A DNA stretch of 42,588 nt from an uncultured Clostridia bacterium (GTDB lineage Bacteria > Bacillota > Clostridia > Christensenellales > Borkfalkiaceae), in contig CALVWN010000006.1 in assembly GCA_944367415.1 (NCBI GenBank), positions 1 to 42,588 of the forward strand, read 5' to 3'. This document shows, in pieces, positions 25,175 to 29,254 of this stretch. The notes under the pieces are model-generated. The model saw only the letters and a program-made list of their open reading frames with translations. It ran no database searches and was not told the DNA's origin. The translations under genes were made by a program, and so were the position numbers. Numbering within the stretch: position 1 is the stretch's first letter; each line of letters opens with the position of its first letter.

Positions 25175-26401
25175 TCATACCCATTGGATGCGCCAGATCG
25201 CAGGCTGTCCATCGACATAGTGCCAGAAATTCCCGCTCGACGCGGATGGCATCTCCTCGCTGTAAAAATAGACTGCGGAGACCGGGATCGTCTGGCTCCC
25301 CGAGATCTGCAACCATTGCTCCTGCGTACCGCGGAAATATACCGCCTCGAGCGGGCAACTGTGGAAGGCATACTGACCGATCCGCGTAAGAGAAACGGGC
25401 AGCACGACAGAAGTCAGCGAAGTACATCCGTAAAATGCCCCGAGGTCGATCTTCTGAATGCCCTCGCTCACATCGACGAACTTCAGGCTCTTGCAGCGTT
25501 CAAAGGCATACCAATCGATGCTCTCCACCTGTTTCCCGAGGTGCGTAGGCGCGATCGTGATGCGCTCCAGCGTCCGGTCAAAGGGGCCGTAAACCTTATA
25601 TCCGCTCTCCGTTTCCGTATAGAGCAACAAACTTTCATCGTGTTCGACGTCATTTTCGGCGACCGTACCGACCTTGACGATCTCGCCGCCACTGTAGAGA
25701 AGCAACAGCTCGCTCTGAAAATTCAACAAGAACCCGTCGATCGTATCTTGATTTTGCGGCTCGGCATACACGGTAAAGACGCCGAACGACTTCGTCGATC
25801 CCGTTCTGTCGCTGACGAACAACTGTCCGTTTTTGATCTCCGCGCGCATGAGAACGCCAAGCTCCGCTTCTGCCGAAAAGGGCGCATCGACGCACACTTC
25901 GCCGACGTCGGAGACAACTCCGTCCGCCGTTACCTTCAGTCTGTTGCTCCCGTTGAGATACAAATCGGTAAAAACCACGTTTTCGGCAAATTGATAAAAT
26001 TCCTCTGCCGTATACGCAAACCCGAGCAGCTGAGACTTCTCATAAACATCCTTGAACGACATAAATAACGTGCGGTCGGGCAGCGGTTCCTCTGTTTCCC
26101 CGGGATCGTCCGTTCCGCCCGGCTCCTCGCCTTCTCCCGGCTCTTCCGTCCCATCGGGATCTTGCACTTCCCCGCAGACCACGCAGACACCGTCCTTCCA
26201 TGTATGCCCAAGCGGCTGAAGCGGCTCGTAGACCTTTTCGCCGCAAATTGTACAGACGCGCTCGATCATGCCCTCTTTGACGCACGAAGGTTCCACAATG
26301 ACATAGTTTGTAAAATCATGCTCGCACGCTTCCTGTGTCGGCGCACAGCCCGACGCAAGCACGAGAATACAGCAAAGCACTGTTGCCAAAAACTTCTTCA
26401 T
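25175..26401 (-). CDS. BspA-like leucine-rich-repeat lipoprotein
   Basis: 408 aa. Signal peptide with lipobox LASGC (Cys 19). Next comes a Cys/His-rich part (CEHDFTNY, CTICGEKV, LGHTW and CVVCGE at about 25-78), a zinc-ribbon-like motif that is common in Clostridial surface proteins. A Gly/Glu/Asp/Pro linker (about 80-108) leads to a unique domain resembling lipoprotein ligand-binding folds, then three BspA-type repeats (WYAFERCKSLKFVDVSEG, LGAFYGCTSLTSVVLP, YAFHSCPLEAVYFRG). It is probably exposed on the cell surface and involved in adhesion or ligand binding; this is family-level inference. Its promoter is TTGACA-17-TATACT, and a hairpin lies in the leader before a GGAGG SD. Confidence 0.82.
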   Translation of the reverse strand: MKKFLATVLCCILVLASGCAPTQEACEHDFTNYVIVEPSCVKEGMIERVCTICGEKVYEPLQPLGHTWKDGVCVVCGEVQDPDGTEEPGEGEEPGGTDDPGETEEPLPDRTLFMSFKDVYEKSQLLGFAYTAEEFYQFAENVVFTDLYLNGSNRLKVTADGVVSDVGEVCVDAPFSAEAELGVLMRAEIKNGQLFVSDRTGSTKSFGVFTVYAEPQNQDTIDGFLLNFQSELLLLYSGGEIVKVGTVAENDVEHDESLLLYTETESGYKVYGPFDRTLERITIAPTHLGKQVESIDWYAFERCKSLKFVDVSEGIQKIDLGAFYGCTSLTSVVLPVSLTRIGQYAFHSCPLEAVYFRGTQEQWLQISGSQTIPVSAVYFYSEEMPSASSGNFWHYVDGQPAIWRIQWV

Positions 26402-26835: not shown

Positions 26836-26889
26836 GGAAAGCATCTCCTTTCTCTGTCAATAAAATACCAAAAAAATTTCTGGTAACGC

Positions 26890-26918
26890 TTGACATAGCA
26901 AATTAAATGCTATATAAT
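26890..26918 (+). promoter_or_regulatory. Consensus sigma-A promoter of the candidate small RNA
   Basis: TTGACA (26890-26895), 17-bp spacer, TATAAT (26913-26918): both boxes match the consensus perfectly. No gene with an SD follows before the terminator at 27067. Confidence 0.9.
26895..26913. promoter_or_regulatory. Operator-like dyad between -35 and -10
   Basis: ATAGCA-N7-TGCTAT fills the promoter spacer exactly, the usual place for a steric repressor site. The neighbouring XRE protein is the obvious candidate ligand. Confidence 0.6.
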
Positions 26919-26924
26919 GCCATT

Positions 26925-27104
26925 GAAATAGAAATATAATTTCTAAATTGCAAATGTCGCCCCGAAGCGTCGCCGTCCGGAACGCGCGTCGGGTGCGGCG
27001 ACCGAAACGCCCATTCGCGCAGCAGAAGCGCGCGCCCTACCTCGCGCGCAGCGCATCGCCCCAACGGGCGCCCCGCCGTCTCCTCGGCGGGGCGCCTCAT
27101 TTTT
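26925..27104 (+). ncRNA. Candidate structured small regulatory RNA
   Basis: About 180 nt between a perfect promoter and a strong terminator. Predicted elements: a 5' A/U hairpin TAGAAAT-ATA-ATTTCTA (26929-26945); GTCGCCG (26969-26975) pairing with CGGCGAC (26996-27002); GCGCGCG (27028-27034) pairing with CGCGCGC (27043-27049), loop CCCTACCT; and the terminator stem with loop TCTCCT. The last loop is complementary to AGGAGA, a Shine-Dalgarno-like sequence, as in C-rich-loop sRNAs of Firmicutes. A 50-codon frame (ATG 26954) has no SD and runs through the terminator, so I do not call it coding. It does not look like 6S, SRP RNA or tmRNA to me. The start and fold are inferred by eye. Confidence 0.65.
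27067..27104 (+). terminator. Intrinsic terminator of the candidate small RNA
   Basis: GGCGCCCCGCCG-TCTCCT-CGGCGGGGCGCC, a perfect 12-bp stem, followed by TCATTTTT. Confidence 0.85.
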
Positions 27105-27135
27105 GACAAAACTGCATCAAAATTGTTTTACCCCC

Positions 27136-27164
27136 TTGACAATCGTATTCCGGCGCTGTATAAT
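27136..27164 (+). promoter_or_regulatory. Consensus sigma-A promoter of the zinc-ribbon pair
   Basis: TTGACA (27136-27141), 17-bp spacer, TATAAT (27159-27164), both perfect; leader about 25 nt with GGGAGG before ATG 27196. Confidence 0.88.
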
Positions 27165-27183: not shown

Positions 27184-27904
<721 letters not shown>

Positions 27905-27916
27905 TTTCGGAGCGCA

Positions 27917-27953
27917 CGCGCCCGCCGCAAACCTTGCGGCGGGCGCGTTTTTT
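27917..27953 (+). terminator. Intrinsic terminator of the zinc-ribbon operon
   Basis: CGCGCCCGCCGCAA-ACC-TTGCGGCGGGCGCG, a perfect 14-bp stem, with TTTTTT after it. The T-run abuts the rarA stop on the other strand. Confidence 0.92.
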
Positions 27954-29254
27954 CACATTCCCTTGTGTTTTCTCGTTTCCTTGACGGTCTTTTCATAGCC
28001 GTTATCGGTCGGCTCGTAATATACCCTGTCCTTGAGCGAGTCGGGCAGGTACTGCTGCGCCACCCACCCGCCGAAGTCGTGCGGATAGAGATATCCCTTG
28101 CGCGCCTCCTTCGCCTCCCGCCCCGCATAGGAGACGTCGCGCAGATACGCGGGCACGGCGTCGTCGCGGTTTTCGCGCGCGTCCTTCCGTGCGGCAAGCA
28201 TGGCGTTTTTTACCGCCCCGCTCTTCTCCGCTTCGCACACATAGACGATCGCCTCGGAGAGCGGGATGAGCCCTTCGGGATAGCCGAGATTCTGATAGGC
28301 GGTCAGCGCGGACGTCGCCACGACGAGCGCGTCGGGATCCGCCATGCCGACGTCCTCCGCGGAATGGACGATGAGCCGCCGCAGCACGAGCAGCGGATCG
28401 CATCCGCCCTCGATGAGCCGCATCGCATAGTAGAGCGCCGCATTGGCGTCGCTCCCGCGCAGCGACTTGCAGAACGCAGACAGCAGATCGTAATAGAGAT
28501 CCTCGTTGTAGGAGAGCGCCTTGCGCTGAATGGACTGTTCGGCATCGGCGAGCGTGACACGGATGCTCCCGTCCGCCTGCGGCGGCGTGGTGAGCACGGC
28601 AAGCTCGAGCGCGTTGTAGGCGGTGCGCAGATCGCCGCCCGCCGTCTTGGCGATATGGTCGAGCGCCGCGTCCTCCACCTTTGCGTCATAATTTCCAAGC
28701 CCCTTGCGCCGATCGCGGAGCGCCCGCACGAGCGCGCCGCGGATCTCCTCGGACGTGAGCGGCTTGAACTCGAATACGCGGCAGCTCGACACAATGGCGG
28801 GCGTCATGGAGGCGTAGGGATTTTCCGTCGTCGAACCGATAAAGACGATCGTCCCCTGCTCGATGGCGGGCAGGAGAGAATCCGACTGCGCCTTGTTGAA
28901 GCGGTGGCACTCGTCGAGCATGAGATAGGTGCGTCGATTGTACAGCTTTAAGTTGTCCCGTGCGCGGTCGACCGCCTTTTTGACGTCGGCGACGCCCGCA
29001 TTGACGGCGTTGAGCTTGATGAAATCGGCGTTGGTCTTCGCCGCAATGACGTTGGCGAGCGTCGTCTTGCCGCAGCCGGGCGGCCCCCAGAAGATGCAGC
29101 TCCCCAGCCGATCGAGCGCGATCGCCCGCCGCAAAAGGCTCCCCTCCGCGACGAGATGCCGCTGTCCCACGAAGTCGTCGAGCGTCGCGGCGCGCATCCG
29201 CTCGGCGAGCGGCTTCGCCTTTTCCTCGTTGTCGTTGAAATCAAACAGATCCAT
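27953..29254 (-). CDS. rarA: Replication-associated recombination protein A (MgsA/WRNIP1 AAA+ ATPase)
   Basis: 433 aa, clamp-loader-like AAA+ ATPase that acts at stalled replication forks. Walker A is GPPGCGKT (residues 57-64), Walker B MLDECHRF, sensor 1 IVFIGSTTENPYASM, and the C-terminal MgsA domain includes SDANAALYYAMRLIEGGCDP and the conserved end with YLYPHDFGGWVAQQYLP. The ATG at 29254 shares its A with the TAA of the patatin gene (TAATG), so the two are translationally coupled. A convergent terminator stands at its 3' end. Sequence and length are typical. Confidence 0.94.
   Translation of the reverse strand: MDLFDFNDNEEKAKPLAERMRAATLDDFVGQRHLVAEGSLLRRAIALDRLGSCIFWGPPGCGKTTLANVIAAKTNADFIKLNAVNAGVADVKKAVDRARDNLKLYNRRTYLMLDECHRFNKAQSDSLLPAIEQGTIVFIGSTTENPYASMTPAIVSSCRVFEFKPLTSEEIRGALVRALRDRRKGLGNYDAKVEDAALDHIAKTAGGDLRTAYNALELAVLTTPPQADGSIRVTLADAEQSIQRKALSYNEDLYYDLLSAFCKSLRGSDANAALYYAMRLIEGGCDPLLVLRRLIVHSAEDVGMADPDALVVATSALTAYQNLGYPEGLIPLSEAIVYVCEAEKSGAVKNAMLAARKDARENRDDAVPAYLRDVSYAGREAKEARKGYLYPHDFGGWVAQQYLPDSLKDRVYYEPTDNGYEKTVKETRKHKGM

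Follow-up and report, generated by a model that had tools for sequence, protein, structure and literature searches.

Promoter P1, which carries putative operators of a neighbouring XRE-type repressor, has probably been cut off from its ancestral target in an uncultured Clostridia bacterium and would now yield a short untranslated transcript. The window, i.e., the whole stretch of 42,588 nucleotides that was analysed, belongs to a draft genome of 1.73 Mb that is 74% complete (Table 1). P1 would act as the outward promoter of the local XRE repressor, which probably binds O1 in the spacer of P1 as well as O2 just past the transcription start, thereby blocking RNA polymerase, and probably also binds O3 near its own gene, resulting in self-control. 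The usual P1 product in relatives appears to be a protein, namely a zinc-ribbon DUF4190 protein in the nearest XRE relatives. In the window, P1 would have been separated from this target by about 190–235 bp of DNA carrying a terminator and a second promoter, P2, which lacks the palindrome and may now serve gene A. On firing, P1 would yield an untranslated RNA of roughly 180 nt, ending at the terminator and most likely a by-product with no role of its own. The sequence itself shows the sites, their conservation, the relatives' protein genes, the missing gene and P2, whereas we infer binding, repression, transcription, a loss or displacement rather than a gain, and the lack of function.

Table 1. 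Features of the XRE locus, with positions counted from the first letter of the window.
Feature	Position	Strand	Basis or remark
XRE-type repressor, 102 aa	26527–26835	-	Pfam HTH_3; likely SD
Operator O3 (putative), 17 bp	26866–26882	.	between P1 and XRE gene; weakest of the three
Promoter P1, TTGACA-17-TATAAT	26890–26918	+	consensus 12/12
Operator O1 (putative), in P1 spacer	26896–26912	.	second-ranked matrix site; extended palindrome 26895–26913
Operator O2 (putative), about +5 to +21	26929–26945	.	top-ranked matrix site
Gene-less body of the predicted transcript	26946–27065	+	fold z +0.23; short partial matches only in the genus
Intrinsic terminator with T tract	27066–27104	+	13 pairs, 12 of them G-C; z -6.43
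Promoter P2, TTGACA-17-TATAAT	27136–27164	+	consensus 12/12; no spacer palindrome seen
Gene A, zinc-ribbon DUF4190 protein	27196–27525	+	zinc ribbon above Pfam cut-off; ribosome site by filter
Gene B, second zinc-ribbon protein	27548–27904	+	DUF4190 below cut-off
rarA (MgsA-type AAA+ ATPase), synteny marker	27953–29254	-	MgsA_C, 4.7e-57

Promoters, repressor and putative operators

The first-pass annotation had described a perfect promoter with its spacer filled by the palindrome ATAGCA-N7-TGCTAT, followed by a terminator and facing a divergent XRE gene; these four elements were borne out, while its internal hairpins as a structural signal were not, and its loop match proved unspecific. P1 agrees with the consensus at every hexamer position. 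With at most one mismatch, TTGACA-17-TATAAT occurs six times on the two strands of the window against a shuffle mean of 0.02, and the two perfect copies are P1 and P2. Of the 24 XRE loci described below, 21 have a recognisable P1, the window included, and its pattern with up to three mismatches occurs once in the window's genome. A looser promoter pattern matched 69 of 103 genomes, many of them at three mismatches, against one match for the reversed control, and the matches examined further were the P1-like ones. The alignment of the region upstream of P1 with those of gene C of G004 and gene A of G111 beats all 500 shuffles. For P2, shuffles were as good in 49, 40 and 11 of 500 cases against the upstream regions of G004 gene A, G004 gene C and G111 gene A, respectively.

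The gene that diverges from P1 encodes an XRE protein with an HTH_3 match of 2.3e-17 (63.2 bits; cut-off 23). Translation probably begins at ATG 26835, preceded by AGGAGA at 26844–26849 on the minus strand, and an alternative start of the frame is ATG 26844. The residues Q, R, N, S, N, W and E of its QRN-SNWE stretch are invariant among 13 aligned orthologues, which fits a shared DNA site.

The view of the spacer palindrome as an operator gains support from comparison, as similar sites, putatively bound by the orthologues, lie in their promoter spacers and near their transcription starts; related sites, repeated within the target promoter, thus recur among the XRE orthologues. A matrix built from 36 sites of 18 relatives, with the window left out and one row (O2 of G118) in the wrong register, ranks O2 (29.3), O1 (23.1) and O3 (17.8) as the three best sites in the window, the fourth scoring 13.9. 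This is a fairer test than a pattern written from the family: such a pattern was reached in 0 of 2,000 shuffles, a partly circular result since it was written after the family had been seen, and its only match without mismatches is O2. The generic palindrome test was equalled by 117 of 2,000 shuffles. P1 layouts were compared at 19 of the 24 XRE loci, with O1 and O2 placed by comparison. The O1–O2 distance among relatives is either 22 or 32–33 bp, two spacings that differ by about one helical turn, and at least six of eight arm pairs are palindromic in O1 at 8 and in O2 at 11 of the 19 loci, the remaining sites being weaker. In the window's own genome, searches for extra operator copies with up to two mismatches gave five and six matches against seven and eight in the reversed control. 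Overall, a promoter of the XRE–operator type is well supported by these comparisons and is ordinary in kind.

Cargo of the promoter in relatives and history of the locus

At an E value of 1e-22, 24 of the 103 genomes of the genus, the window's own among them, have this XRE protein. Among the weaker matches, the first 16 loci were examined; G011 carries another XRE type and stands outside the 24. Downstream of the operators, 18 of the 24 loci open a protein gene, two have a shortened gene and four have none that was recognised. The protein genes are of six kinds: a helix-like protein (G037, G123, G020, G009, G134, G059, G118, G136), a zinc-ribbon protein with probable membrane helices (G054, G044, G107), an LRR protein (G047, G003), a DUF4190 zinc ribbon (G004, G111), a probable membrane protein (G051, G130) and a camelysin-like protein (G042). 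These kinds were assigned by Pfam on one example each and by eye for the others, the labels "helix" and "membrane" being by eye, and the Pfam match of the helix-like protein is below the cut-off only. The cargo genes of G047, G042 and G136 extend beyond the examined stretch. The ribosome-site filter flagged most relatives after O2, G136 being an exception.

The two shortened genes are a helix gene in G018, with 111 aa against 151–158 in seven others, and a DUF4190 gene of about 39 aa in G108. The former enters a G+C-rich hairpin that the terminator scan does not call; the latter runs into a scan-called terminator, and its P1 and the XRE start are missing, so that G108 (L222, near 1797–1963) looks like a decaying copy of the module. 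The loci without a recognised gene are those of the window, G028, G126 and G036. G028 has a P1 of 11/12 and then a hairpin bearing A and T tracts, which was seen by eye and not flagged by the terminator scan. In G126, P1 was not found by the scan, and a hairpin seen by eye is again uncalled. Both P1 hexamers of G036 have decayed, as judged by eye, and operator-like sites, also judged by eye, persist in G126 and G036. A filter-flagged frame of 150 codons in G036, 214 bases upstream of the XRE gene, was judged spurious from its make-up. The gene-less stretch of G028 (L204, about 1900–2055) has extra operator-like sites and a hairpin with a long C- and A-rich loop; it folds at z -3.40 with the operators and -2.97 without them, and that of G126 at z -2.26 with its end hairpin included. 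The G028 stretch is perhaps a better small-RNA candidate than that of the window.

Two other arrangements were seen. In G123 (L192, 1756–3086), the helix-like protein, which has no Pfam family above the cut-off, has a frame for a patatin-like phospholipase (1.5e-11) close behind it. In seven relatives examined (L201, 2134–2249; L198, 3130–3245; L173, 964–1079; L074, 950–1066; L190; L182; L176), the DUF4190 genes at the rarA locus are preceded by a divergent XRE gene of a second, shorter type, whose different palindrome TTCCCA-N6-TGGGAA, with small departures, also sits in the promoter spacer.

The XRE tree places the window as the sister of G111 and G004, both of which drive DUF4190 genes, with G108 and then G018 outside. 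The supports are 88/83, 84/84 and 88/93, the first two at the window's forks, and none is at the strong mark. Gene loss is no more clustered on this tree than with the labels shuffled, 222 of 500 shuffles being as low. In the window, G004 and G018, a DUF697 gene and rarA flank the locus, and rarA lies near DUF4190 and XRE genes in several relatives. A BspA-type LRR gene (25175–26401) adjoins the XRE gene in the window; its relative in G018 is on the opposite side of the XRE unit, which indicates that the locus has been rearranged.

The DUF4190 match of gene A (4.7e-8, 33.1 bits) is slightly below the Pfam cut-off of 35. Gene A scores 424 to the P1-driven gene A of G111, the best of six DUF4190 proteins, against 362 and 354 for two genes of G004. 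By identity, the DUF4190 protein of G101 is closest (74% over residues 3–109 vs. 72% for G111), and the promoter of its gene lies off the contig. By score, gene A is probably orthologous to the gene that P1 drives in G111. The simplest reading of these comparisons would be that P1 once drove the DUF4190 gene and is now separated from it by a stretch with a terminator and P2; alternatively, an extra gene like gene C of G004 may have been deleted. Both histories are indirect readings, since the body resembles nothing with which it was compared. No close sister species of the window genome was found.

The predicted transcript and its possible roles

The terminator proposed as a perfect 12-bp stem is indeed strong and has one pair more than described (-32.3 kcal/mol), with TCTCCT as its loop and the stem and loop spanning 27066–27097. 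The three internal hairpins that had been reported are in the predicted fold, but they are no signal beyond shuffles: 119 of 200 shuffles of the body fold equally well or better, the two body hairpins alone reach z -1.36 and -1.19, and the first supposed RNA hairpin coincides with the O2 palindrome of the DNA. For the full 180 nt, z is -3.35, which weakens to -0.77 with the terminator left out and O2 included.

Queries of the relatives for a conserved RNA gave little beyond the promoter. With 331 bp spanning the whole unit as the query, three of 100 relatives matched, at 26860–26946 (promoter and operators) only. For a second query, 26945–27110, with up to eight candidates scored per genome, 80 of the 103 genomes of the genus, its own included, had matches at E ≤0.1; these are scattered and, outside the own locus, shorter than 60 nt. 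Among the candidates scored, the best one in another genome covers 26 nt of the terminator stem (2.2e-5), and G109 has 46 nt at 79% across 27027–27072 (2.1e-4). No match was found in viral contigs scanned with a 24-base piece across the body start. A gene remnant in the body was sought at the nucleotide level and in six frames against the post-P1 regions of seven relatives and genes A and B, and nothing was clearly above shuffles; the lowest tails were 28/200 for nucleotides and 11/100 for proteins, the protein comparison being weak as the longest frame, not the true cargo, was used for several relatives. A common origin of the gene-less stretches was likewise rejected, with shuffles as good in 80 of 500 cases for the window against G126 and 459 of 500 against G028.

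The first-pass annotation had combined a repressor with its operators, a half that comparison supports, and a base-pairing regulatory RNA, a half that found no support. A regulatory RNA is unlikely here, and so is the specific version of a functional small RNA under repressor control that acts through base-pairing, even with a perfect promoter, a strong terminator, the whole-transcript z and the like layout in G028 in its favour. Its body has no excess structure, matches the 103 genus genomes in short pieces only and resembles the G028 and G126 stretches no more than shuffles do, and a protein gene occupies this place at most XRE loci of relatives. The proposed pairing of the loop TCTCCT with AGGAGA is not specific. 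This string is a general ribosome-site-like one, found 67 times in the 42.6 kb of the window (one of them the terminator loop itself) against 18.5 in shuffles, and the loop match therefore gives no specific target. In line with a transcript not obviously of a known class, the Rfam scan of the window gave zero families at the cut-off and, at a low threshold, three weak matches, all far under it. Riboswitch and leader families were rejected on the same scan. 6S RNA, a neighbour of rarA in Bacillus, was also rejected, the one 6S-like match of the genome (RF00013, 40 bits, below the cut-off of 46.4) lying on another contig, at C59:9252–9442. An RNA may have a role, perhaps one gained since, in some lineages, given the layout of G028 and the G028 and G126 stretches, both of which fold better than shuffles.

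It is quite unlikely that the XRE–operator unit is a target-swapping cassette in which a short RNA, silenced until induced, has replaced the protein in the window and G028. A leader of gene A, i.e., a switch that lets polymerase past the terminator under some signal, would find the probable ancestral target next downstream; the reading is very unlikely against a lack of Rfam leaders at the cut-off, the great stability of the terminator stem, a predicted fold in which no competing stem was seen, and the perfect promoter that gene A owns in P2. Least credible of all is a small protein from ATG 26954, in line with the earlier view that the roughly 180 nt hold no credible gene. Its frame is open for 50 codons, its ATG is near the cargo-gene starts of relatives, and its codon-position G+C (0.72/0.62/0.79) is lowest at the second position, an order as in genes. 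Against it, the frame enters the terminator, matches zero Pfam families when read from 26948, has no ribosome site by the filter that flags most relatives after O2, and has a second-position G+C well above the 0.38–0.47 of five neighbouring genes.

Several findings also count against the preferred reading of a promoter cut off from its target. The window has kept both P1 hexamers perfect and G028 nearly perfect, but those of the likewise gene-less G126 and G036 have decayed; a perfect promoter is not expected to persist over a useless transcript unless the change is recent, and this hints at use or at a recent event. No fragment of a cargo gene was recognised in the body, and many operator sites of the relatives are poor palindromes. 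Together with the terminators uncalled at G018, G028 and G126, these imperfect palindromes trimmed the confidence in this reading and slightly raised the two RNA rivals.

Likeness to known systems and significance

Phage- and element-type XRE/Cro-CI repressors of the RstR, DicA and ImmR types use paired palindromic operators. Similarly, the window has a small HTH_3 repressor, a divergent target promoter and putative operators in this promoter and toward the repressor's own gene, and RstR is the best NCBIfam match of its XRE protein (59.4 bits, under the cut-off of 80). Unlike those systems, the six Pfam-named genes of the locus include no phage or integrative-element gene, and the targets of the window-type XRE vary between genomes. 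The top PADLOC match of the XRE protein is to CapH-type anti-phage regulators (2.2e-10), and the cargo of G123 includes a patatin-like phospholipase; a general HTH match is not evidence of CapH membership. In PADLOC, the helix protein and patatin of G123, the window DUF4190 protein and one membrane protein match no family, and one zinc-ribbon protein weakly matches an REase model. With bacterial small RNAs of Rfam, the window stretch shares an intergenic position and its own promoter and terminator; it differs from them in having no family above the cut-off, no long homologue found and no excess structure outside the terminator.

The C protein C.Kpn2I is reported to stall elongating polymerase from a site within its own gene (PMC6237814). 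By analogy with this account, the window's regulator is small, as are the C proteins of restriction-modification systems, and O2 might stall polymerase just after the start; unlike in C.Kpn2I systems, the Pfam-named locus genes include no restriction or methylase gene. Literature searches, judged by abstract openings, found no publication on such an arrangement.

What was suspected to be a new regulatory RNA thus becomes a readable case of regulatory rewiring, in which a repressor and its operators would outlive or change their target. The more interesting lead is that one XRE type, with related operators, is found before six kinds of genes within one bacterial genus.
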